Of a stretch of DNA of 64,000 nucleotides, positions 21,502 through 38,736 are shown piece after piece. Position 1 is the first letter of the stretch. Every line of letters starts with the position of its first letter. The notes beneath the pieces were generated by a model. That model ran no database searches and was not told the DNA's origin. It was given only the letters and a program-made list of their open reading frames with translations. The translations under genes were made by a program, and so were the position numbers. The DNA lies in the NCBI GenBank assembly GCA_007833815.1, contig CP033464.1, positions 1,222,501 to 1,286,500 on the forward strand, read 5' to 3'. Source of the stretch: Brevibacillus laterosporus. Lineage in GTDB: Bacteria > Bacillota > Bacilli > Brevibacillales > Brevibacillaceae.

Positions 21502-23094
21502 ATGGCTGAATTAAACGCAAAATTATTTAGTGCCGCAGACAACTTACGAAGCAAAATGGATGCATCAGAATACAAAAACTACTTATTAGGATTGATCTTT
21601 TACAAGTATTTATCTGATAAGTTATTAGAAAAAGTAGTTGAAATAGCAGATGAATCATTAGAAGAATACAACACACAAGAGAAACAAACTCAATTGTATA
21701 GAAATTTATTAGCAGATAAAGAGATAAAAAATGACTTGATTGAAACTTTAGTGGATACATTAAATTATGATATTGAACCAGAGTATTTATTTAATATATT
21801 AGCCAATCAAGCCAAACAAAACACGTTTCAGTTGAATGACTTAAATAAAGCCTTTATCGATTTGTCTACCAAATATGATCAATTTAACGGATTGTTTGAT
21901 GATGTGGATTTGAAATCAAAAAAATTGGGATCAGATGATCAACAGCGGAATATTACCATTACAGAAGTCCTGAAGAAACTAAATGATATCGATGTAATTG
22001 GACATAACGGCGATGTCATTGGGGATGCCTATGAATTCCTAATTGGTCAATTTGCCTCAGAAGCTGGTAAGAAGGCTGGAGAATTTTATACACCTCATGA
22101 AGTTTCTGACATGATGGCTCGTATTGCTGCAATCGGTCAAGAAGACAAAAAATTGTTTAGCGTATTTGACCCAACGATGGGCTCAGGTTCCTTAATGTTG
22201 AATATCCGAAACTATATTAAGCATCCAGATAGTGTAAAGTATCATGGGCAAGAACTAAATACTACGACCTATAATCTAGCAAAGATGAACTTGATTTTGC
22301 ATGATGTTAATAAAGAAGATATGCGTTTACGCAATGGGGATACATTGAACAAAGATTGGCCGACAGATGAGCCTTATACCTTTGATGCTGTCCTTATGAA
22401 TCCACCCTACTCTGCAAAATGGTCCGCAGATGATACATTCTTAGATGATTCGCGCTTCAATCGTTACGGGAAGTTAGCGCCACAATCAAAAGCAGACTTT
22501 GCTTTTCTTTTACATGGGTTCTATCATTTGAAAGATTTGGGAACAATGGCTATCGTCTTACCGCATGGGGTACTGTTCCGTGGAGCTGCAGAAGGTGTGA
22601 TTCGGAAGAAATTATTAGAAGATGGCAGTATTGACGCCGTCATTGGTATGCCAGCAAACTTATTCTTTGGGACATCGATTCCAACAACAGTCATCATCTT
22701 GAAGAAAAATCGTAGCACTCGTGATGTGTTATTTATTGATGCAAGTAAGGAGTTTATTAAAGAAAAGAACCAAAATAAACTTTCCAAAGATAATATTGAT
22801 AAGATTGTCGAAACATATAAGAAGCGCGAAAATGTGGAGAAATATGCCCATGTAGCTTCCTTTGATGAAATCAAAGAGAATGATTTCAATCTGAACATCC
22901 CTCGATACGTAGATACCTTTGAAGAAGAAGCGCCTGTTGATATGGCATCAGTTGGCTCAACTATTAAAGACATTCGAAAAGAAAAAGCAGAACTAGAATC
23001 TAGTCTATTTGACATGATTTCTTCGCTACACTTTGATGAAGAAAACGCAGAATGGATCAAGGGTGCATTAGAGGTGTTTAATCGTGAAAAATAA
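21502..23094 (+). CDS. hsdM: Type I restriction-modification DNA methyltransferase subunit
   Basis: 530-residue N6-adenine methyltransferase subunit. An N-terminal helical HsdM domain (about 5-130) precedes the methyltransferase domain with the SAM-binding motif FDPTMGSGSLML (motif I) and catalytic NPPY (LMNPPYSAKW, motif IV, about 298-301). With HsdS it methylates the target site, and with HsdR it forms the restriction complex. Its end overlaps hsdS by 11 bases. Confidence 0.95.
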   Translation: MAELNAKLFSAADNLRSKMDASEYKNYLLGLIFYKYLSDKLLEKVVEIADESLEEYNTQEKQTQLYRNLLADKEIKNDLIETLVDTLNYDIEPEYLFNILANQAKQNTFQLNDLNKAFIDLSTKYDQFNGLFDDVDLKSKKLGSDDQQRNITITEVLKKLNDIDVIGHNGDVIGDAYEFLIGQFASEAGKKAGEFYTPHEVSDMMARIAAIGQEDKKLFSVFDPTMGSGSLMLNIRNYIKHPDSVKYHGQELNTTTYNLAKMNLILHDVNKEDMRLRNGDTLNKDWPTDEPYTFDAVLMNPPYSAKWSADDTFLDDSRFNRYGKLAPQSKADFAFLLHGFYHLKDLGTMAIVLPHGVLFRGAAEGVIRKKLLEDGSIDAVIGMPANLFFGTSIPTTVIILKKNRSTRDVLFIDASKEFIKEKNQNKLSKDNIDKIVETYKKRENVEKYAHVASFDEIKENDFNLNIPRYVDTFEEEAPVDMASVGSTIKDIRKEKAELESSLFDMISSLHFDEENAEWIKGALEVFNREK

Positions 23095-24316
23095 CCATAA
23101 ACCAGAAATTCGATTTCCTGGATATACTGGAGATTGGGAACAGCGTAAGTTGGGAGATTTAGCAGATTTCTCTAAAGGTAATGGATATTCAAAAAGTGAT
23201 TTGACTGATGAAGGTAAACCAGTAATTTTGTATGGGCGATTATATACAAAGTATGAAACCGTTATTGAATCTATAGATACATTTACTATAGAAAAAGAAA
23301 AATCTGTAATAAGTAAAGGCAATGAAGTAATCGTTCCAGCTTCAGGAGAAACTTCTGAAGACATTTCAAGAGCATCAGCTGTTAGTAAACCAGGAATAAT
23401 TTTGGGTGGAGATTTAAATATTGTACGACCAAGTAATGAGATTGACCCAGTATTCTTAGCCCTGACTATCTCGAATGGTAAACAGCAAAAAGAATTAAGC
23501 AAGCGAGCTCAAGGGAAATCTGTTGTTCACCTGCATAATTCAGATTTAAAAGAAGTTAATCTGCTTTTTCCGAAAAAAGAAGAACAAACTAAAATCGGTA
23601 ATTTCTTTAAGAAGCTCGATGAGACTATCGCTCTTCATCAGCAAGAACTAACCACCTTCAAACAAACAAAACAGGGATTCTTGCAAAAAATGTTTCCAAA
23701 AGAAGGGGAGTCCGTGCCGGAGGTTCGATTCCTAGGATTTACCGGAGATTGGGAACAGCGTAAGTTGGGGGAGTTAGCAGATTTCTCAAAAGGTAATGGA
23801 TACTCAAAAAGTGATTTGACTGATAAAGGTAAACCAATAATTTTGTATGGGCGATTATATACAAAATATGAAACCGTTATAGATTCTGTTGATACATTTA
23901 CTATAGAGAAAGAGAAATCCGTATTAAGCAAGGGCAATGAAGTGATCATTCCATCTTCTGGAGAGACTTCTGAAGATATTTCAAGAGCATCAGTTGTTAG
24001 TAGACCTGGAATTATTTTAGGTGGTGATTTAAATATCGTACATCCAATTATTGATATTGACCCGGTGTTCCTAGCGGTTACCATCTCAAATGGTAAACAG
24101 CAGAAAGAATTAAGTAGACGAGCACAAGGTAAATCTGTTGTTCACCTGTATAATTCAGATTTAAAAGAAGTGAATTTATTTTTTCCAAAAAAAGATGAGC
24201 AAGTCAAAATCGGCAGTTTTTTTAAACAACTAGACGGCATTATCGCTCTCCATCAACGTGAATTAGATGCCTTAAAAGAAACGAAAAAAGCATTCCTACA
24301 AAAGATGTTTGTCTAA
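23084..24316 (+). CDS. hsdS: Type I restriction specificity subunit with two near-identical recognition halves
   Basis: 410 residues. Normally HsdS has two different target-recognition domains joined by conserved helices; here residues about 10-214 and 215-410 are near copies, each starting RF-x-G-x-TGDWEQRKLG and ending in a helix with FLQKMF. The second half is displaced by exactly 615 bases (205 codons). Such a protein should recognise two equal half-sites in inverted orientation, a hyphenated palindrome. GTG start at 23084 with GAGGTG upstream, overlapping hsdM, which couples translation. Confidence 0.93.
   Translation: MKNNHKPEIRFPGYTGDWEQRKLGDLADFSKGNGYSKSDLTDEGKPVILYGRLYTKYETVIESIDTFTIEKEKSVISKGNEVIVPASGETSEDISRASAVSKPGIILGGDLNIVRPSNEIDPVFLALTISNGKQQKELSKRAQGKSVVHLHNSDLKEVNLLFPKKEEQTKIGNFFKKLDETIALHQQELTTFKQTKQGFLQKMFPKEGESVPEVRFLGFTGDWEQRKLGELADFSKGNGYSKSDLTDKGKPIILYGRLYTKYETVIDSVDTFTIEKEKSVLSKGNEVIIPSSGETSEDISRASVVSRPGIILGGDLNIVHPIIDIDPVFLAVTISNGKQQKELSRRAQGKSVVHLYNSDLKEVNLFFPKKDEQVKIGSFFKQLDGIIALHQRELDALKETKKAFLQKMFV
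23111..24316 (+). repeat. 615-bp tandem direct duplication inside hsdS
   Basis: Copy A 23111-23725 and copy B 23726-24316 align end to end in frame. Long runs are identical in DNA, for example around 23129 and 23744 (GGAGATTGGGAACAGCGTAA), while scattered silent and conservative changes show the duplication is not brand new. Confidence 0.9.
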
Positions 24317-24338
24317 GCAATAGAAGTGAGGGAGAAAC

Positions 24339-27300
24339 ATGACAAAAATACCGCATAATGATGAAGCTGAAGTAGAACGTCGACTGATTGAAGTGCTAGG
24401 AGAAGGACATAATCAATGGAATTATCGTCCAGATTTAAAATCAGAAGAAGACCTATGGAAGAATTTGCGTCAAAAAATTACACAAAATAACTTATCAGAA
24501 ATTGGAGATCATCCAATTTCTGATAAAGAATTTGACACCATTAAAACAGAATTACTATCAAAAACAAAGACACCCTTTGATGCGGCTAGATGGCTCAAAG
24601 GGGAGAATGGAATTGCTCGTATTACGATTGAACGTGAAGATGTATCTTTAGGTTCGATGTCTTTAGTGTTGTATTCCAATCAAGACATTGGTGGCGGAAT
24701 CTCTACATATGAAGTCGTTCATCAGATTGCGAAACAAAAGGCAAAAGTTGATGATCGTGATCGCCGATTTGACGTGACACTCTTAATCAATGGGTTGCCA
24801 ATTGTTCAAATTGAATTGAAGCAAGTCAGTGCCAAAGATGGCGTATTCCAAGCCTATAATCAAATTAAGAAATACGCAGAAGAAGGGTTGTTTAGAAATA
24901 ATATCTTTTCTACTCTTCAAATATTTGTCATTTCCAACGAACAAACGACTCGCTATTTTGCCAATGCGTTGCCAAAAGACATACATAAGAAATTTGTCTT
25001 TAGTTGGCGGACAACGGACAATCGAAAAGTAGAAAATCTCTATGAATTTGTGAAACAGGTCTTAAATATTCCAGATGCACATCGCTTGATTGCCAATTAT
25101 ACGATCGTTAGCGAGGATCAAGACAACAAAACCTTAATGGTATTGCACCCTTATCAAATTCATGCGATTGAAGCCTTGTTTACATCTGCCATGAAACATG
25201 AATCTGGACATGTGTGGCATGCGACCGGTTCAGGAAAAACGTTGACAAGTTTTGTCTCTACGAAATTATTAGCTCGCAAACCAGGTGTAGATCGTACCAT
25301 TATGCTTATTGACCGAAAAGACTTGGATAATCAAACGACGAAAGAATTCACCAAATTTGCTTCCGAGTTTAATACCGGTATTTCTTCTGATAATGCCAAG
25401 TCTAATAGCTTGATTGTCGGAACCGAAAGTGCGAAAGAGCTGAGTAATACTCTACTATCTGATACCAATTCCAATACAGTGATTATTACCACTCGCCAAA
25501 AATTAGAAGCTGCCTTGCGTTATGCTCAAAGACAAGAAGAACAAAAAGGCACCCAACGTTTTAAGAAACTACTAGGGCAACATATTGTCTTTGTCGTAGA
25601 TGAATGCCATCGTGCGTTAAGTGCAGAAGGAATGAAAGAGATTAAGGGTTTTTTTCAAAATTCTACATGGTTTGGTTTTACAGGTACGCCGATATTTAAT
25701 GAAAATAAAAAACAAGCTAAAGGCCAATTAGCTCGCACCACTCGTGATCAATATGGAGAAGTTTTGCACACTTATACTATTAAAAATGCATTGGATGATG
25801 GGGCTGTTTTAGGGTTCCAAGTAGAGCATGAAGATACGATTGAACCCACATCATTAAATAATTATATTTTTAATCAACTTCGTCTAAATGAAAAATACGC
25901 CAATTTTAGTAATGATGAAATTAACGATATGATCGATCAAATGGATGGAATAGAGAAGGAAGCATATCTTGAACCATCTACTTTCGAAAGTGATGATCAT
26001 ATTCAAAAAGTCATTCATAAGATTTTTCGACCAGATAATGCCTATATCAAATTTGACTTCCAAAACGGTCGCCCGCAAAAGTCTGCCATCTTAACAACAA
26101 GTTCCATTGATATGGCGAAACGCTACTATCAGGCAATCAAGGAAATGACCAAAGATCCAGAATGGTTGACGAAAGAATTTGCTGGACATCCAATCCGAAC
26201 AGGGCGTACGATTGAAGATCCGGACTTCCCTCGGATTGCCGTCACCTATTCGATACAAGAAAACGAAGATAATTCCAAAAAAATTCAAGATGAAATGAAA
26301 GAAATTATTAAGGACTATAACGATTATTATAATACAGCTTGGTCGATAGAAGATATTGAACGATATAATGGTGATATTAACAATCGTTTAGCTCGTAAGA
26401 AAGCAGAATTCAAAGAATTTGGGAAACAAATTGACCTTGTTATTGTTGTGGATCGCTTATTAACTGGATTCGATGCACCCACGATTCAAACGTTATTTGT
26501 GGATCGAAATTTAACTTATGCCAATTTGATCCAAGCTTTTTCTCGGACCAATCGTACCTATCCTGGAAAGACAAAAGGATTAATTGTAACATTCCGAAAA
26601 CCTTCGACAATGGAACAGAATGTAGAAGATGCGACGAAGTTATATTCTCAAGCACAAGAGGAATCTAATCTTGTTTATCCAACTTATGATGAATCGAGGA
26701 AACGCTTCCAAAAGGCTCACAAAACATTGAAAAAACTGGTACCAAATTCAACCGACATTGACGAGCACTCTCCACTTGAAACTCGGATTGAATTTGTGAA
26801 AGCTTTTCAGGAGTTAAATAATGCCTACGAAGCTTTAGTTACGTATGATGATTATAACGATGAAATGGATAAATCAAAAGCACTCCAAGAACAGGTAAAG
26901 ACCTTAGAAGAATATATTGGCGTGTACAACACGGTTAAGGGATCGCTAGTCGATGAAAGGGACGGTGATAGACCAGGAGGACCAGATTTCTCAGACATTG
27001 AATTCTATGGAGAAAATGCGATTAAGATCTATGATATTGACTCAACCTATATTGACCGATTATTAGAAACGTACTCAGCAAATAATCAGAATATCCGTGA
27101 CGAGATCGAAAAAGTACTTCAAAAACTGAAAAAATCAGAAATTGTTAAAGAGGTATACCGTGCGATTTTAAACGCCATTGATGCCAAAGAAATAAATTCA
27201 GAGGAAGATACTTTTGTAGTGAAACGACGTTTCTTCACCGAGTCCTATAATAAAGCGATTGGAGAATTTGCGAAAGCTTGGTTTGTGGATGAAGGAGAGC

Positions 27301-27500
27301 TGCATTCATCTGCTGTTCAATATGTAATAGGATCAGAGCCTATTCCAAATATCGGGGGAATTATTGACAGTAAGCAATTTGATAAGTTTAAAGCCGTACA
27401 TCCAGATGCAAAACCGTTAAAATATGGACCAGAAATGAAGCGTCAGTGGAGAAAGACGTTAGATGAAGTCATTGTACCTTTGAAGGATGAGTTGAGATAA
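24339..27500 (+). CDS. hsdR: Type I restriction endonuclease/translocase subunit
   Basis: 1053 residues, the usual size. The N-terminal PD-(D/E)xK nuclease domain shows D-x-T-L-L-I-N-G-L-P-I-V-Q-I-E-L-K (about 146-162). The SF2 helicase motor follows with Walker A ATGSGKT (about 293-299), Walker B DECHRA (about 420-425), motif III FTGTP and motif VI AFSRTNR, then the C-terminal helical domain that docks on HsdM. Cuts DNA lacking the HsdM mark after translocation. Start ATG follows GTGAGGGAG, 22 bases after hsdS, so hsdS'-hsdM-hsdS-hsdR are one operon. Confidence 0.95.
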   Translation: MTKIPHNDEAEVERRLIEVLGEGHNQWNYRPDLKSEEDLWKNLRQKITQNNLSEIGDHPISDKEFDTIKTELLSKTKTPFDAARWLKGENGIARITIEREDVSLGSMSLVLYSNQDIGGGISTYEVVHQIAKQKAKVDDRDRRFDVTLLINGLPIVQIELKQVSAKDGVFQAYNQIKKYAEEGLFRNNIFSTLQIFVISNEQTTRYFANALPKDIHKKFVFSWRTTDNRKVENLYEFVKQVLNIPDAHRLIANYTIVSEDQDNKTLMVLHPYQIHAIEALFTSAMKHESGHVWHATGSGKTLTSFVSTKLLARKPGVDRTIMLIDRKDLDNQTTKEFTKFASEFNTGISSDNAKSNSLIVGTESAKELSNTLLSDTNSNTVIITTRQKLEAALRYAQRQEEQKGTQRFKKLLGQHIVFVVDECHRALSAEGMKEIKGFFQNSTWFGFTGTPIFNENKKQAKGQLARTTRDQYGEVLHTYTIKNALDDGAVLGFQVEHEDTIEPTSLNNYIFNQLRLNEKYANFSNDEINDMIDQMDGIEKEAYLEPSTFESDDHIQKVIHKIFRPDNAYIKFDFQNGRPQKSAILTTSSIDMAKRYYQAIKEMTKDPEWLTKEFAGHPIRTGRTIEDPDFPRIAVTYSIQENEDNSKKIQDEMKEIIKDYNDYYNTAWSIEDIERYNGDINNRLARKKAEFKEFGKQIDLVIVVDRLLTGFDAPTIQTLFVDRNLTYANLIQAFSRTNRTYPGKTKGLIVTFRKPSTMEQNVEDATKLYSQAQEESNLVYPTYDESRKRFQKAHKTLKKLVPNSTDIDEHSPLETRIEFVKAFQELNNAYEALVTYDDYNDEMDKSKALQEQVKTLEEYIGVYNTVKGSLVDERDGDRPGGPDFSDIEFYGENAIKIYDIDSTYIDRLLETYSANNQNIRDEIEKVLQKLKKSEIVKEVYRAILNAIDAKEINSEEDTFVVKRRFFTESYNKAIGEFAKAWFVDEGELHSSAVQYVIGSEPIPNIGGIIDSKQFDKFKAVHPDAKPLKYGPEMKRQWRKTLDEVIVPLKDELR

Positions 27501-27511
27501 AATCGTCTTGC

Positions 27512-27737
27512 AATTAATGTTTTTCTTTAAAAGGGGTCATACTCGCAGGAATGCTTGACTTGGCCGCCAACGATCTGAACTACACTTACAAGGGAACAAC
27601 GAAAGCGATTACTGCATTTGCTAATACACCAAATTACAATTGATGAAGATCGTAAAATAGAAAGCATTCAACTAAAGCTAAATAATGAAATACTTGAAGA
27701 ATTACAATTAGGAACAGGAGACTTGTCTACGGACTAA
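27512..27737 (+). pseudogene. Short coding remnants between hsdR and mrr
   Basis: Two short open stretches in different frames overlap here: one reads through LAGMLDLAANDLNYTYKG and stops at 27643; another (27630-27737) reads ITIDEDRKIESIQLKLNNE and stops just before ACTAATCTTC. Both look like protein sequence and are too short to be whole genes. I do not recognise the parent; the second could be the tail of a recombinase. No terminator for hsdR is evident. Confidence 0.3.
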
Positions 27738-27824
27738 TCTTCTGTTCCCTTTTCTGTTTTGGTGGCAATATAATTACTAATTTTTTGTTATATTGATTAT
27801 AGAAAATAGAATGGGGGAAACAGT

Positions 27825-28736
27825 ATGGCTGTTCCGGGTTATCAAGATTTTATGTATCCATTTCTTAAGCAGTTAGAAGATGGTAAAGAGTATAGATTAC
27901 AGGATTTATATGTGTTGCTAGCAAATCATTTTAATTTAACAGACGAAGATATTGCAGAGAAACTCCCAAGTGGTAAGCAAACTCTATTAGTTAATCGAAT
28001 TGGATGGGCTAGAACTTATTTAAATAAAGCAGGGTTAATTAAGATAGTGAGAAGAGCAGTATTTAAAATTACTGAAGAAGGGTTAAAAATAATTAAAGAT
28101 CCAGCTTTGACACGAATTGATAGAAAGTTTTTGACTAAGTATGAGAGCTTCAATGAGTTTATTAAAAATACATCATCTGATAAGAAAACACCTGAAGTAT
28201 CAATCGATGGGGAACAAACTCCGCTCGAATTAATTGATTACAACTATAATGTATTGAAAAATGAGCTTCAAGAATTGATATTAGAAAAAATTCTAGAATG
28301 TTCTCCAGCCTTTTTTGAACGTTTGATTGTCGATTTGATTGTAGCTATGGGCTATGGTGGGTCAGTAAATGATGCTGGAAGAGCAATTGGTAAAACAGGC
28401 GATGAAGGAATAGATGGAATCATTAAAGAGGATGTATTAGGTTTAGATATGATCTATTTACAAGCGAAACGCTGGAAAGTTGATTCAACTGTATCAAGAC
28501 CTGCTATTCAAGGATTTGTAGGTAGTTTAGTTGGAAAGAAAGCTTCGAAAGGAATCTTCATTACGACAGCTAAATTTTCTAAAGAAGCTAGGATCTATGC
28601 TGAGTCAATTGATAAAAGAGTAATTCTAATTGATGGACAAGAACTAACTAATTTGATGTTTAAGTATAATGTAGGGGTATCTGATGAAGAAGTTTATACT
28701 ACTAAGAAGATTGATTTGGACTTCTTTGAAGAGTAA
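27825..28736 (+). CDS. mrr: Mrr-type restriction endonuclease (type IV-like)
   Basis: 303 residues. N-terminal Mrr winged-helix domain (about 3-95, MYPFLKQLEDGKEYRLQD) and C-terminal Mrr_cat nuclease domain (about 160-285) with the PD-(D/E)xK pattern: Glu in FERLIVDLI, Asp in GDEGIDGII (D193 and D197 region) and QAK (213-215). Homologues cut modified DNA. ATG follows GGGGGAAAC. Next to the type I system it forms a small DNA-defence block, AT-rich compared with the flanking core genes. Confidence 0.9.
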   Translation: MAVPGYQDFMYPFLKQLEDGKEYRLQDLYVLLANHFNLTDEDIAEKLPSGKQTLLVNRIGWARTYLNKAGLIKIVRRAVFKITEEGLKIIKDPALTRIDRKFLTKYESFNEFIKNTSSDKKTPEVSIDGEQTPLELIDYNYNVLKNELQELILEKILECSPAFFERLIVDLIVAMGYGGSVNDAGRAIGKTGDEGIDGIIKEDVLGLDMIYLQAKRWKVDSTVSRPAIQGFVGSLVGKKASKGIFITTAKFSKEARIYAESIDKRVILIDGQELTNLMFKYNVGVSDEEVYTTKKIDLDFFEE

Positions 28737-30520: not shown

Positions 30521-31915
30521 ATGGGTTCAATAAAAACGTTACGCTCTGAAATTGAAAGGAGCATGATGTTATTCGGTTTTAGGCTTACACAATTTAGTAA
30601 GTTAACAGAAATCCAATCAGGAAATCTTAGTTACATACTAAAAAAAGATCGACCTATAACCTTACCGCAACTTGATCGAATTACTAAAGCGTTTGGGTAT
30701 GCTGAAGGATGGTTTTATCCATTATATGTGGATGACTGTTTTTCAAATGGAAAAGTGGTACGTCATAAAATGATTTCGTTCTTAATAAGATGTTCAGAAA
30801 TCAATAAATTTGATTGCATTGATTTGGTCTTACAAAAGCTACTTGAAGATCAGAAAAATATTGGTATTATTTTCTCTGTTGCAGAAGCATTATTTGAGAA
30901 TGGCAATGGAGAAAAGGCAGGATATTTTTATCAGCTCGTAATTGAAAATGAAAAAGAAAGCCATTCTGAGCGATTAGCTATTATCCAGTACAAATTATTT
31001 CGGATACTACAGGGGGAAGATGCAGAGGAAAATTGGAAGGCTGTAATACGATTTGAATCTTATCGAAATCGAGTACCAGAAAATTTTCAGTTAGACGCTT
31101 TGCTTCAATTAACCACGGTTTGTTTTACGTTGCATAGATGGAAAGAAGTAGAAAGATATGCTGATGAATTAATAAGACTGACAAAGATTGTTTACCATGA
31201 TGAGCTGAGAAAGAGTAAAAGTAATATCGTTGATCCCCTTAAAACAGAACGACACCTTGTTGTTTATTACGGACAGGGTTACTTATTAAAAGGTGTATCT
31301 TTAGAAATGCAAGGGTTATATGAAGAAGCAAAAAAATATGTGCATATTTATGCTGATTTAGGATGGTTTGAATTTTCAGACGATCTTGGACAAGAAGAGA
31401 TAGAAAAATTTCGCATTTGGGGTAAAGCAAATATGTATACCCTAGATTTGTTACTTGGAAATATAGGAGTACTATCTGAGTACATAGATTTCTTAATCCA
31501 ATACCCAAATGAACAAACAGCAGGATTTTTGACGATTATGAAGTCAGCTAATATACATAATTTTTCGGTGGATGATATCTTAGAACGTTTTTCAATCGAA
31601 ATTAGAGGTTTCGATGCCTTTAGAGACCCCATAAATATAAGTAGGCATTTACACTTTCGGTATCAAAAAGCTTTGTATGAATATCGAAATGAGCGGATTT
31701 CAAGAGGGATAGATGATACTTTACGATGTCTTAGTTTATCTGATATAGTAAATCACCACCAAGAATATAAACGATGCGTAGAGTTGCTTTGGAAATATCG
31801 AAAATACGCATCTAAACAGCAAAAAGAATACTTTGAAACCATTATTATGAAGGGAGGTCATAAAGATGATAAGATTCCTACTTTCTTTAGTTATGGTAAT
31901 TGGATTAACTTATAG
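30521..31915 (+). CDS. HTH-TPR regulator of RNPP type (putative peptide-pheromone receptor)
   Basis: 464 residues. An N-terminal helix-turn-helix of XRE type (about 10-65, FSKLTEIQSGNLSYILKK) is followed by about 380 residues of helical TPR-like repeats. This is the layout of NprR, PlcR and AimR (RNPP family), whose TPR groove binds a secreted and re-imported peptide. A 44-codon secreted-peptide gene overlaps its last 50 bases in the +1 frame, as in rap-phr pairs. ATG at 30521 follows AGGTGGGG; an in-frame GTG at 30506 lies inside that site. A paralogue sharing the string PLKTERHLVVYYGQGYLLK lies at 35246. Confidence 0.8.
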   Translation: MGSIKTLRSEIERSMMLFGFRLTQFSKLTEIQSGNLSYILKKDRPITLPQLDRITKAFGYAEGWFYPLYVDDCFSNGKVVRHKMISFLIRCSEINKFDCIDLVLQKLLEDQKNIGIIFSVAEALFENGNGEKAGYFYQLVIENEKESHSERLAIIQYKLFRILQGEDAEENWKAVIRFESYRNRVPENFQLDALLQLTTVCFTLHRWKEVERYADELIRLTKIVYHDELRKSKSNIVDPLKTERHLVVYYGQGYLLKGVSLEMQGLYEEAKKYVHIYADLGWFEFSDDLGQEEIEKFRIWGKANMYTLDLLLGNIGVLSEYIDFLIQYPNEQTAGFLTIMKSANIHNFSVDDILERFSIEIRGFDAFRDPINISRHLHFRYQKALYEYRNERISRGIDDTLRCLSLSDIVNHHQEYKRCVELLWKYRKYASKQQKEYFETIIMKGGHKDDKIPTFFSYGNWINL

Positions 31916-32000
31916 TCTTGCTCAAGATGAAAGCTCAATTACAGTATTGGCAAAATCTAATCATAGTGTAGGAGCATATACTCATGGTGTAGGCGGGTAA
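31866..32000 (+). CDS. Small secreted peptide precursor (putative signalling pro-peptide)
   Basis: 44 codons, ATG at 31866, preceded by GGGAGG 8 bases upstream. The product has Met-Ile-Arg, a hydrophobic core (FLLSLVMVIGLTYSLA, residues 4-19) that ends in a signal-peptidase-like SLA site, then a polar 25-residue tail ending SVGAYTHGVGG. This is the shape of Phr, PapR, NprX and AimP precursors, in which a C-terminal fragment is the signal. It overlaps the receptor gene by 50 bases, and a transposon relic begins 25 bases after its stop. Role is inferred from architecture only. Confidence 0.72.
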   Translation: MIRFLLSLVMVIGLTYSLAQDESSITVLAKSNHSVGAYTHGVGG

Positions 32001-32024
32001 ATGATTAAAGAAACAATATAAAAA

Positions 32025-32774
32025 GAGGCTGTCCCAAAAGTAAGTTCTAGCTCACTTTGAGAACAGCTCTCTTGAGAAAAAAATGAAAAATGGCGGTGTT
32101 AGGGGTGCTATCCCTGCGCCGTCATTGCTTGTTTTTGATCTACTGCCGCCTTTTTGAGCAAATTATGGGCAAGCGAAAGCCATCCGACCTCAAGGCTTAC
32201 CTTCGGCAAGCCGCGAAGCAGAAAACGCCGGAATCCCCGGTTATTCTTCATTTGCCCAAACACGCTCTCCGGCTCAATCATCCGCCGAACGGACAGGGCA
32301 TAACCTTCCTCGCTGCGGAGTCTTTCTCGTGCATGCTGCTTGTAACGCAAGTACCTCAAACTGACGCTGATTTCCCGATTTCCTTTCGCTTTCGTGCAAG
32401 ATGCCTTGAGTGGGCATCCTTCACAGCTCTCATTTCTATGAATAGATCCGCTGTGTGTAGGCGTAGATATGACCTTGGCGAGCATCTTGGGGTGATAGCT
32501 GTCTCGCCCACCACGGGGATATGCTGACTCAAAAATAGCGTCGTCTAGCCGGTTAATGGCTTCGTTGACGACGCGAACCAAATGATGAGGAGGAATGTCT
32601 TCTTCCAAGTCCATTGGCAGGCAAAGTTGGTCCATTGTATATTGAATGTACAAAGAAACCGTTCCTTTCGTATATGGTGGGGTGGTACCTCCATTTTACC
32701 AAAGGACGGTTTCTTTTTGATCTTCACAAGACAAAAAGCTGTCCCTTAGGTCTATAACCTTTTGGGACAGCCCC
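32025..32774. mobile_element. Internally deleted IS1182-type element
   Basis: Terminal inverted repeats GGCTGTCCCAAAAG (from 32027) and CTTTTGGGACAGCC (to 32772) enclose about 750 bp. The element keeps both ends and both ends of its transposase gene but has lost the middle, so it could only move with help from a full copy. Inserted directly after the signal-peptide gene and before the Spo0E-like gene. Confidence 0.85.
32108..32653 (-). pseudogene. IS1182-family transposase with internal deletion
   Basis: 181 codons: residues 1-62 match the N-terminus (DQLCLPMDLEEDIPPHHLVR, HPKMLAKVI) and the rest the C-terminus (CEGCPLKASC zinc-like cluster, EPESVFGQMKNNRGFRRFLL). A full transposase has about 450-500 residues; the central catalytic part is missing, with an in-frame join near residue 62. 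TTG start with a GGAGGT-like site upstream. Confidence 0.85.
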
Positions 32775-32805
32775 TTTTTAACATTTTATATGTTTTTCTC
32801 AGTCG

Positions 32806-33168
32806 GTGGTTTGCTGTAGGTTAGTATATAGTTTAATTAGTAAATTTTGGTTCAAAGAGGAGGAGGTTGATATCAAAAATGATAATCACGAAATAGAAAA
32901 GGACATTCCTCAACCCCATAGTAAAGGAACGCCCTCTTCCAAATCATTACATTATGCTACCACCACTTTATCACAGAATGATTGCGATTTACAGCAAGCT
33001 ACAGAAACTTTAGAAGCTTTACGCCATAAGTTAGTGAAATTATTTTGCCGAGAAGGTTCATTCTCAAGTCCAGAAGTCTTACAAATGAGCCGGCAACTAG
33101 ATGAGTACATTGTAGCCATTCAAAAAAGATCAAAGCTTACGGAAAACTACACTGGTTGTCGGTTATAG
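32806..33168 (+). CDS. Spo0E-like phosphatase with N-terminal extension, start uncertain
   Basis: The C-terminal half (about 60-112) reads LEALRHKLVKLFCREG and LQMSRQLDEYIVAIQK, the two-helix Spo0E-like motif with S-x-x-L-D. The 120-codon frame opens at GTG 32806 without a ribosome site, only 30 bases after the transposon end. A strong AGAGGAGGAGG lies at about 32857, but the codon behind it in this frame is not a start, so the original 5' end may have been altered by the insertion or a small frameshift. Together with the copy at 4758 it is the second Spo0E-type gene in the window. Confidence 0.6.
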   Translation: MVCCRLVYSLISKFWFKEEEVDIKNDNHEIEKDIPQPHSKGTPSSKSLHYATTTLSQNDCDLQQATETLEALRHKLVKLFCREGSFSSPEVLQMSRQLDEYIVAIQKRSKLTENYTGCRL

Positions 33169-35245: not shown

Positions 35246-36667
35246 ATGATTATTACAAATCATGCTCTAAGACGATCACTGAGGTATGAAATCACAGCGC
35301 GTTTGAAAGCACATGAATACACGATCAGTAAGCTGAGTGAATTAGCTAACATCAATAATCCTACTTTGAGCATTTTTTTAAAAGGAGTTAATGCACGAAC
35401 AATAAGGATAGAGCAATTAGATGCTATTGCAATTGCTTTTAATGAGTCGCCCGGATGGTTATATGAAACCTATCTAGAAGAATGTTTTTCACGTGGAAGA
35501 GTATACAAAAGAAGAGTGTGTCCTTTTTTGATAAGATGTGTTGAGATAGGCAGATATGATTGTATTTACGAGGTAGTCTCTAGGTTGTTAGATATGCGTA
35601 ATAATATAGATGTTCTTTTTGATGTCGCAGAACAGTTATTTCAGAAAAGCAAGCAGAAAGAATCCATCTACTTTTATAAGTTAGTCATTGAAACGGAGAA
35701 AAATCAATGGTCAGAGAGTTTTATTATGAGTCAATATCGTTTGTTTAGAGCATCACTGGGTACAAATGTGGAGGAAAATTGGAACGCTATAATAAGATTC
35801 GAAGCTTACCAAAAAAGACTCCCTGAGAATCATCAATTGGATGCCTTATTACACCTAGCTCATGAATGTTTTAAATTACGGAAATGGAAAGAAGTAGAGG
35901 ATTTTGCAGACGAGTTAAGAAAAATGGCTACCTTGATCCATCAAGATGAACTAGGTAAACGGAAAAGGGCACGGAATGATGAGCCTCTTAAAACAGAGCG
36001 TCATCTGGTTGTTTATTATGGACAAGGCTATCTGTTAAAAGCAGCATCATTAGAGAAACAAAAATTATATGGAGAAGCAAGAAAATTTGTTTCTGACTAT
36101 TTAAATCTAAGCTGGATCGATCCATTAAACAAATCAGTACAAGCAGAAGTCCATAAATACAAGATTTCGGCTACAGCAAACTTGTATAGGCTAAATCTCC
36201 TCATTGGGGACATTTGTGTTCTTGATGACTACATCACGTTTCTTAAACTTCACCCTTCAGAATTAGTACCTGGCTTAGTCACCATCATGAAAGCAGCCAA
36301 TAAGCATGATTTTCTAATAGATGACCTATTGAAGAGATTTTCAGAAGAAATTCGTTCTTTTGATGACTCTCATGATCCAATTAACGTAAATCAGCATCTA
36401 CGTTTTCGCTATTATTTAGCTACCTATCATTTTCAAAATGAACGTTTTGAAAGTGGAATAAAAGATACTCTCCGATGTCTAGATTTGTCCATAGTTATGA
36501 ATAACCAAAAGAAGTTTATCCAATGTGTAATACTTTTTGAAGCACATAGATATCACGCCAAAGATCAACAAATTAAATGGTTTAAAAAAATAATGGAGGA
36601 GGTAAAGAATGACAAAAGTTTGTTTGCCTTCGAGGGGCATTGTTTGGGTTTGATAACGTTGGACTAA
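35246..36667 (+). CDS. Paralogous HTH-TPR regulator of RNPP type
   Basis: 473 residues, clearly paralogous to the regulator at 30521: same length, HTH (about 15-65, LSELANINNPTLSIFLKG), same pattern WKEVE-x2-ADEL and PLKTERHLVVYYGQGYLLK (about 247-265). ATG 35246 was chosen because AAGAAGGAG lies 11 bases upstream; a GTG at 35234 abuts that site. Its 3' end is overlapped by a very short frame at the place where the first regulator carries its peptide gene. It may be an orphan receptor that listens to the peptide of its paralogue, or to none. Confidence 0.8.
   Translation: MIITNHALRRSLRYEITARLKAHEYTISKLSELANINNPTLSIFLKGVNARTIRIEQLDAIAIAFNESPGWLYETYLEECFSRGRVYKRRVCPFLIRCVEIGRYDCIYEVVSRLLDMRNNIDVLFDVAEQLFQKSKQKESIYFYKLVIETEKNQWSESFIMSQYRLFRASLGTNVEENWNAIIRFEAYQKRLPENHQLDALLHLAHECFKLRKWKEVEDFADELRKMATLIHQDELGKRKRARNDEPLKTERHLVVYYGQGYLLKAASLEKQKLYGEARKFVSDYLNLSWIDPLNKSVQAEVHKYKISATANLYRLNLLIGDICVLDDYITFLKLHPSELVPGLVTIMKAANKHDFLIDDLLKRFSEEIRSFDDSHDPINVNQHLRFRYYLATYHFQNERFESGIKDTLRCLDLSIVMNNQKKFIQCVILFEAHRYHAKDQQIKWFKKIMEEVKNDKSLFAFEGHCLGLITLD
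36609..36653 (+). pseudogene. Decayed counterpart of the signalling-peptide gene
   Basis: A 14-codon frame (MTKVCLPSRGIVWV) starts at ATG 36609, 6 bases after the strong site GGAGGAGG, overlapping the regulator's end in the +1 frame exactly as the 44-codon peptide gene does at 31866. The stop TGA-TAA ends it before a signal peptide can form. Most likely a broken pro-peptide gene; a functional 14-residue peptide cannot be excluded. Confidence 0.5.
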
Positions 36668-37178: not shown

Positions 37179-38736
37179 GAATCAATTTCATAAATCAGAG
37201 CCCTACGGGCCCAAGAGTTTTTGAGCATAGAAAAAGGAGTACCTCCCCAAATCTCTAATAAGTTAAGTGCGACCCAAACTTAAGAGGTGGTGGTGACTCC
37301 CAATGTCTATTATAAAACAAGGAAGCCTATTTGATATACAGGAATTATTCGACTTAGAACCTCCCAAACGTTTTGAGGCTATTTTCTCCACTCTTGACAT
37401 TGAACCGCTTCTTTTCTCTATTTCCAAAAAGTCGATCTATGGTGCTCCTACCGAGTTGAATTATGCTGCCATGCTATATTCTCTGGTCGCTCGAATCGTA
37501 GAACGAATTCCCACTGTGAAAGATTTACGAAAACGACTAAAACATGACTTTATCTTTCGAATGGAATGCGGTTTTCTGTTTTCTGACAATCTTCCTTCCG
37601 AGGCATCGTACTCTCGTCTCGTTCAGAAGCTTTCTGAAACAGCACACCTCAATAAAGTCCAAGACAAGTTACTGTTGCAAGCGATACAGGAAGGGTTCAT
37701 AGGCGATGAAGCAATTGCCATCGATGCAACCCATTTTGAATCCCGTGATCGAGGTGTGGCAAAAGAAAAAAAGACGAAACCAGAATTGAAAAAACGTGGA
37801 CGTAAATCAAAAGCAGAAAAAGATATCTACGACAAGCAAAAGCAAGAAAAGGAAGCCCAGAAGTCCTTATATGAAAAAACCATTGCAGCTCAACTGGATG
37901 TGACGTTGGAGGACCTACGGTACCAAGTTCCTATCAAACCTGCTTGGGGAATAAAGAAAAATAGTGATGGAAAGAACATGTTTTGGTTTGGATACAAAGC
38001 TCATCTTGCAGTCAGTACGAAAAGTCAATATATTCTTTGCTCCCTCATGTCCTCTGGAAGTATGAACGATGGGAAAGCAGCGATTCCTTTGTTGAAAGGA
38101 ATTCAAACTGTCCTGCCCAATCACATGCGATATGCAATCATGGATGCGGGATATGACTATGTCCCGATCTATCAACAAATCGGACGAATGAACGCACAAG
38201 CGATTATTGCTTACAACAAGCGGAATGAAGGAGAAATGGTTGGATTCGATTCACATTTTGCGCCAACTTGTGTCCGAGAATGCTCTTATCGTTACGACAG
38301 TTATGATAAGAAGTACAAAACGTTGAAATTTGTACGGCCAAAAGAATGTAAAGACTGTCCATTGAATCAGGATTCTCTCTGTCAAAAAGTCTATAAAATT
38401 AAGGCTGAAACCGATCTTCGAAAGTACACCGCGCCAGCCAGAGGAACAAAAACGTGGGAAGAACTATATGACCAGAGAACAGCCGTAGAGCGAGTACATG
38501 CTTATTTGAAGGAGTTCTTTCAGCTAAACAATGTCCGATATCGCACAGGAAAGAGGGCAAAAGTCCATTTTGACTTGGTTACTCTTGTTTATAATGCATC
38601 CAAGTTAGCAGTGGATCGAATTCGTAGGAACTGGCAAGTAGGATGAAAGTAGCAGCTTAATTTTTTCAAAAAAACAGCATTAATCCCGTAGGGATAGTCT
38701 AATTATTTTTGGAAAAAGCCTTTATGAAATTGATTC
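37179..38736. mobile_element. Complete insertion sequence with 4-bp target duplication
   Basis: Terminal inverted repeats GAATCAATTTCATAAA (37179-37194) and TTTATGAAATTGATTC (38721-38736) are perfect over 16 bp. AACC flanks both ends as a direct repeat (37175-37178 and 38737-38740), the mark of a target-site duplication. The element is 1558 bp with one intact transposase gene. Confidence 0.9.
37303..38646 (+). CDS. Transposase of IS1182/IS4-like type (DUF772 + DDE)
   Basis: 447 residues. N-terminal DUF772-like domain (about 20-115), catalytic RNase-H-like core with Asp in AIDATHFES and in YAIMDAGYDYV, and a cysteine cluster CKDCPLNQDSLC (about 362-373) before the Glu of RTAVERVHAYLK. A lysine-rich insert (about 145-190) lies between the first catalytic Asp and the core. 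ATG follows AAGAGGTGGTGG. Intact, so the element may be active. Confidence 0.9.
   Translation: MSIIKQGSLFDIQELFDLEPPKRFEAIFSTLDIEPLLFSISKKSIYGAPTELNYAAMLYSLVARIVERIPTVKDLRKRLKHDFIFRMECGFLFSDNLPSEASYSRLVQKLSETAHLNKVQDKLLLQAIQEGFIGDEAIAIDATHFESRDRGVAKEKKTKPELKKRGRKSKAEKDIYDKQKQEKEAQKSLYEKTIAAQLDVTLEDLRYQVPIKPAWGIKKNSDGKNMFWFGYKAHLAVSTKSQYILCSLMSSGSMNDGKAAIPLLKGIQTVLPNHMRYAIMDAGYDYVPIYQQIGRMNAQAIIAYNKRNEGEMVGFDSHFAPTCVRECSYRYDSYDKKYKTLKFVRPKECKDCPLNQDSLCQKVYKIKAETDLRKYTAPARGTKTWEELYDQRTAVERVHAYLKEFFQLNNVRYRTGKRAKVHFDLVTLVYNASKLAVDRIRRNWQVG

Follow-up and report, generated by a model that had tools for sequence, protein, structure and literature searches.

The Alo (AloR-AloP) family of cell-to-cell signalling systems was published in 2020 (Voichek et al.; PMC7425212). 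It includes aloP genes that overlap aloR as well as members from Brevibacillus (PMC7425212; PMC10075063), with AloP open reading frames (ORFs) of 32-50 amino acids (PMC7425212). In Paenibacillus polymyxa, for which secretion of Alo peptides was demonstrated, the mature AloP13 peptide is SHGRGG, and the receptor AloR13 switches on an adjacent spo0E-like promoter that the peptide shuts off (PMC7425212). AloR-AloP systems have also been named on plasmids of Brevibacillus laterosporus LMG 15441 (PMC10075063). Here we describe a receptor gene and an overlapping gene for a small secreted peptide in a 64,000-nucleotide stretch of B. laterosporus DNA (contig CP033464.1, positions 1,222,501 to 1,286,500; hereafter the window, with coordinates counted from its first base). 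Judged from their sequence, the two form an AloR-AloP pair and belong to the published family, so that the system is not new in kind. We put at about 90% the probability that the locus is an Alo quorum-sensing cassette of the Alo13 type, in which AloR, controlled by the peptide, activates a downstream spo0E-like gene.

The Receptor Gene and the Overlapping Peptide Gene

The gene aloR (30521..31915, forward strand; ATG at 30521, TAG at 31913-31915) encodes a predicted receptor of 464 amino acids with helix-turn-helix (HTH) and tetratricopeptide repeat (TPR) domains. The 44-codon propeptide gene aloP (31866..32000, forward strand) lies in the +1 frame relative to aloR and overlaps its last 50 bases, stop codon included, and a strong ribosome site (AAGGGAGGT, 31850..31858, forward strand) stands 7 bases ahead of its start. 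The product, MIRFLLSLVMVIGLTYSLAQDESSITVLAKSNHSVGAYTHGVGG, has a hydrophobic N-terminus, called a signal peptide from hydropathy only, and ends in THGVGG, whose codons (31980..31997, forward strand) probably specify the mature hexapeptide, given their position and the likeness to the published SHGRGG. The receptor and its overlapping small secreted-peptide gene are a real observation, and the receptor length, the 44 codons, the ribosome site, the frame and the tail given in the initial annotation were confirmed in the sequence.

An ORF of 44 codons is short, and the AloP product is known from its sequence alone, which would suit a frame that overlaps by accident or a small secreted protein of some other kind that is not a signal. 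Homologous loci were collected with an eight-sequence profile in a contig scan, the best 80 of 113 relatives yielding 74 distinct named loci; all counts out of 74 refer to these nearest receptor relatives only. At 58 of the 74 loci there was a hydrophobic small ORF of 25-75 codons whose start fell between -100 and +150 bases relative to the receptor stop, and at 53 such an ORF was accompanied by a ribosome site; small ORFs with a ribosome site, a hydrophobic N-terminus and HG within the last 8 residues likewise numbered 53/74. Among 258 control ORFs of at least 250 codons from the same loci, 58 had a hydrophobic small ORF, 14 had one with a ribosome site and one had one with HG, and this lone case is itself an AloR homologue. 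Start offsets of -46 (16 loci), -3 (15) and -49 (6) recur among the 74 loci, the window aloP having -49. Because the loci are related to one another these counts are not independent events; still, with placement and HG-type tails conserved at 53/74 homologous loci against 1/258 controls, aloP is more than a chance frame, and an accidental or unrelated ORF is a very remote explanation.

Comparison With Alo13 and Other Receptor-Peptide Systems

Peptides ending in SHGRGG are encoded in Paenibacillus sp. BJ-4 (L114) and P. brasilensis (L115), and the four published Alo13 primers fit both loci at the expected places, with 1, 1, 2 and 2 mismatches in the former and 2, 0, 2 and 2 in the latter, one of the mismatches of the third primer having been built into it by design. 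The AloR of P. brasilensis, an Alo13 orthologue that is followed by a Spo0E-like ORF, shares 42% identity with the window receptor over 459 aligned positions. In P. terrae NRRL B-30644 the receptor profile gave 44 matches across the genome, several of them fragments, compared with 40 AloR receptors reported (PMC7425212). The primer fit, the identity to the Alo13 orthologue and the agreement between 44 matches and the published 40 together settle the membership in Alo.

With Alo13 of P. polymyxa the locus shares an HTH-TPR receptor, a small secreted propeptide gene overlapping the receptor end, a tail of the form xHGxGG and a downstream spo0E-like gene. It differs in the peptide (THGVGG instead of SHGRGG), in a receptor identity of 42%, measured on the P. 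brasilensis orthologue, in an insertion element before spo0E, in another spo0E promoter sequence and in a spo0E start that is probably not an NTG codon. The receptors of LMG 15441, which are located on plasmids, are 53% (pBRLA33) and 45% (pBRLA07) identical to that of the window; as in the window, a spo0E-like gene is annotated downstream in pBRLA07, and at the presumed pBRLA07 locus (L190) the peptide ends in GHGMGG. Rap-Phr, NprR-NprX, PlcR-PapR and AimR-AimP are alike in combining a TPR receptor with an adjacent gene for an exported propeptide, but a phmmer search of the receptor against PDB sequences returned just two matches (E 0.25 and E 0.45), with no RRNPP receptor between them. Rap is a phosphatase without a DNA-binding HTH; a Rap-Phr identity was rejected because the N-terminus of the window receptor is an HTH-type domain.

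The proposal of an RRNPP-type receptor overlapped by the gene of a secreted peptide, with the C-terminal residues of the peptide as the likely signal, is supported by this homology and by the resemblance of THGVGG to AloP13. The initial annotation went astray in calling the pair undescribed, for its kind had already been published as Alo (PMC7425212; PMC10075063); it had listed AimR-like receptors of Paenibacillus, in effect the Alo family, among known systems without drawing the consequence. For this particular aloR-aloP pair we found no description in the Alo literature examined.

AloR homologues were also seen in two Brevibacillus phages: in SecTim467 (L043, 2670-4493) next to a Spo0E-like gene, and in Emery (L045, 2932-4415) together with a 43-codon, GTG-started secreted peptide ending in HGGIGW.

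Domains and Fold of the Receptor

Pfam gave no HTH match and only a weak, below-cut-off TPR match for the window receptor, and searches of NCBIfam and PHROGs gave none. A second AloR homologue in the window (35252-36664) matches HTH_26 at 1.6e-06 and aligns across the N-terminal part of the receptor, whose AlphaFold2 model (mean predicted local distance difference test score 90.8) has short helices at residues 7-58 followed by a TPR superhelix. The paralogue match and alignment, together with these helices, identify the N-terminus as an HTH-type domain, and the model predicts a TPR or TPR-like domain, as in RRNPP receptors, for the C-terminal part. Foldseek ranked eukaryotic TPR proteins first; a VIA-align fold search matched TPR proteins, RapI and NprR being among the 50 matches listed and eukaryotic TPR proteins ranking equally high, and PlcR, PrgX, Rgg and AimR are absent among these 50, a list that rules none of them out. 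Both domains foreseen from sequence inspection were thus recovered, the TPR part through model and fold search and the HTH by way of the paralogue and the model helices instead of a Pfam match of its own. The initial annotation would have been refuted by the lack of a conserved small ORF beside receptor homologues or of a predicted TPR groove; the small ORF is conserved and a TPR fold is predicted.

The Downstream spo0E-like Gene and the Insertion Element

The spo0E-like gene, which the initial annotation did not mention although it is the published and conserved target, extends over 32872..33168 (forward strand) from its probable ATC start, preceded by a ribosome site at 32857-32866, and matches PF09388 at 1e-09 within the ORF 32806-33165. 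At 34 or more of the 74 receptor loci a Spo0E-like ORF begins no more than 1 kb downstream, a count made with a home-made profile that overlooks divergent members. A syntenic relative is present on the B. laterosporus plasmid pAZOBL1, in the order MFS gene, aloR, spo0E, two hypotheticals, second DNA-binding protein, M23 peptidase, DUF5050 and amidase; two places in this record match the window receptor, and an unannotated aloP ends in YQHGVGG. Gene order and the analogy with Alo13 support the downstream spo0E-like gene as the probable conserved target.

In pAZOBL1, spo0E follows aloR at a distance of about 320 bases and no transposase is annotated between them. In the window, a 762-bp insertion element (32019..32780) with 22-nt terminal inverted repeats and a transposase remnant (32108-32653, reverse strand; DDE_Tnp_1_6, 1.4e-26) separates aloP from spo0E. 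The insertion may have uncoupled spo0E, leaving a half-decayed locus whose pair no longer controls it, and several decayed Alo copies do occur in the same genome. However, the spo0E promoter element and -10 box are intact beyond the insertion, as in pAZOBL1, and the frames of aloR, aloP and the Spo0E domain are all open, so that we regard such an uncoupling as unlikely.

A Candidate AloR Operator

Upstream of spo0E, TTTTTCTCAGTCGG is common to the window and pAZOBL1, exactly 34 bases before TATAGT. This conserved element with its fixed spacing (TTTTTCTCAGTCGGTGGTTT-N14-TATAGT, 32793..32832, forward strand) is a candidate AloR operator joined to the -10 box, and the bases TTTTTCTCA within 32780-32835 are a putative AloR contact site. 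Its overlap with the -35 region fits an activator, as AloR13 is. For a leave-one-out test, 24 of 37 upstream sequences were chosen by hand, the 13 omitted being from Paenibacillus; 18 had an exact TATAGT and reduced to 12 non-redundant Brevibacillus-type loci, in 10 of which the leave-one-out matrix ranked the element position first (L058 and L063 failed). The strict pattern (up to 3 mismatches) occurred 6 times in the genome of the window and its reverse not once; six genomes of the genus gave 11 matches versus 1 reversed, and a looser, noisy pattern gave 39 versus 14 across 40 genomes of the family. For 35 of these 39 the surroundings were examined: an AloR ended no more than 1.3 kb upstream of 24 and a Spo0E-like frame lay no more than 500 bases downstream of 27, and seven lacked both an AloR and a Spo0E-like gene alongside; in the subset with at most 2 mismatches (n = 24) these figures were 20 and 22. 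The counts overstate independence, because the pattern was drawn from some of the same loci and the species are related. Against AloR as the protein that uses the element, a few spo0E genes carry it with no AloR nearby, so that another regulator could use it. Paenibacillus relatives have a different spo0E promoter sequence, and the operator is therefore proposed for the Brevibacillus clade only. The words motif, binding site and palindrom are absent from PMC7425212, and no wider literature search for an AloR operator was made.

In the same genome, an element with 3 mismatches (L184) precedes a secreted Amidase_6 gene and follows an aloP-like tail ending in HGAGS, and one with 2 mismatches (L182) stands before a secreted-protein gene without a Pfam match. 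Both are perhaps promoters left over from decayed Alo loci.

Proposed Signalling and Its Direction

On the genes, homology, conserved gene order and conserved promoter element established at this locus, we infer a course of signalling that extends from the mature peptide, its uptake and its DNA site to the direction of control, the sporulation effect and an intact control of spo0E past the insertion. AloP would be exported through its signal peptide and processed to a C-terminal fragment, probably THGVGG, which would be re-imported by an oligopeptide permease and bind in the TPR groove of AloR. Free AloR would activate the spo0E-like promoter, probably at the element at 32793-32812 that overlaps the -35 region, while peptide-bound AloR would be inactive there, so that Spo0E would fall at high density. 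Less Spo0E would release Spo0A phosphate and with it sporulation and stationary-phase genes; the pair most likely times the switch-off of a sporulation brake.

Alternatively, the peptide of this Alo pair might activate AloR, as PapR does PlcR, or the main targets might be elsewhere, such as the MFS gene divergent from aloR or the nearby secreted enzymes, which the initial annotation had suggested. RRNPP receptors of both kinds, peptide-activated and peptide-repressed, exist (PMC7425212), the MFS gene is divergent from aloR also in pAZOBL1, and no Spo0E-like gene was found near the secreted-protein gene that follows the L182 element. But published Alo13 is shut off by its own peptide (PMC7425212), and the element pattern matches once in the window, before spo0E, with none near the MFS, M23 and amidase genes, where other kinds of site are possible. 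The proposed MFS and enzyme targets thus find no support within the window, and an activating peptide or a main target other than spo0E appears improbable.

Start Codon of spo0E

The sole in-frame ATG, GTG or TTG before the Spo0E domain is GTG 32806, which lies inside the promoter element and upstream of the -10 box; the annotated pAZOBL1 spo0E start is likewise within the promoter element, just ahead of the -10 box. A strong ribosome site (GAGGAGGAGG, 32857-32866) is placed 5 bases ahead of ATC 32872. Among 45 non-redundant Spo0E-like ORFs, 27 have a good NTG start with a ribosome site, 11 fall in neither class, and 7, the window included, form a strict group whose ribosome site occurs solely before ATT, ATC or ATA. 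These seven starts are 41-53 codons before the domain; in relatives an ATG, TTG or GTG stands at nearly the same distance (43-54 codons). A similar test on the first 100 codons of long control ORFs, with a cut-off of -10 kcal/mol rather than -7, was passed by 1/329, and all seven also pass at -10. Two further Alo-linked spo0E genes of the same genome have ATT (L003/L185 and the C3 copy L225). An out-of-frame TTG near the ribosome site of the window was rejected as the start, since L051 keeps ATT without that TTG. The sequences thus suggest that spo0E of the window and several relatives start at AUU, AUC or AUA. Starts of this type are the rarest kind in bacteria and are known from infC and pcnB. 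A literature search joining Spo0E, AUU and start codon found no paper, and both the candidate operator and the probable non-NTG starts are additions that we did not meet in the Alo literature examined.

Other Alo Copies, Spo0E Families and Neighborhood

The second aloR homologue (35246..36667, forward strand; 46-48% identical) has a degenerate aloP and is an orphan receptor; the M23 gene is on its opposite side compared with pAZOBL1. The whole genome has 17 receptor matches. Its close clade comprises three intact pairs with tails THGVGG, EHGVGG and DHGIGG; no aloP was found on searching at the receptor C4:280297, and Alo remnants occur on C1, C3 and C4. The peptides that accompany five more distant receptors end in SVGEGW, DNGARPTKK, KIVGGGW and, twice, DAGERP.

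The genome has 24 Spo0E-like matches (PF09388), all above cut-off; Bacillus subtilis has few Spo0E-like proteins. In a multi-copy Spo0E-like family of three genomes of the genus (L215-L220, L222, L224, L227; L235-L251), an in-frame stop separates a leader, ending in GTPPP or nearly so, from the Spo0E part. The stop is TGA in 16/17 copies and TAA in 1/17, a count biased by a search pattern that itself contained TGA (3 mismatches allowed), and it adjoins the inverted repeats GGGCGTTCC...GGAACGCCC and CTTGAG...CTCAAG. The Spo0E motif is retained past the stop in 11/17 copies, and 11 pairs showed 94 synonymous versus 112 non-synonymous codon changes. Rfam gave two matches on six of these loci, both under family cut-offs. 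Possible explanations are readthrough, a leader that causes stalling, or decay common to the copies.

To the left of the Alo cassette and the MFS gene, the window has genes for the specificity and R subunits of type I restriction and for an Mrr-type endonuclease (23084-28736); in pAZOBL1 a SIR2 family gene is found farther out on the left side of the MFS gene. Past the second aloR and before the amidase gene, the window has an open gene for a DDE transposase (DDE_Tnp_1 with DUF772, 37303-38646).

Implications for Alo Signalling in Brevibacillus

The analysis assigns a locus of Brevibacillus to an established signalling family and provides a peptide, a target and a DNA site that can be put to the test. 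If the AloR operator is true, Alo regulons would be readable from sequence, and if the non-NTG starts are true, there is a group of sporulation-phosphatase genes with start codons of the rarest type, which annotation misses. Joining the two, we tentatively suggest, at somewhat less than even odds, that in Brevibacillus Alo the site TTTTTCTCAnTnGGnGnTTT, 34 bases before the spo0E -10 box, is recognised by this AloR clade and that spo0E is also held low by AUU, AUC or AUA initiation. Transcription under the control of the peptide and a deliberately weak start codon would then together set the dose of Spo0E.
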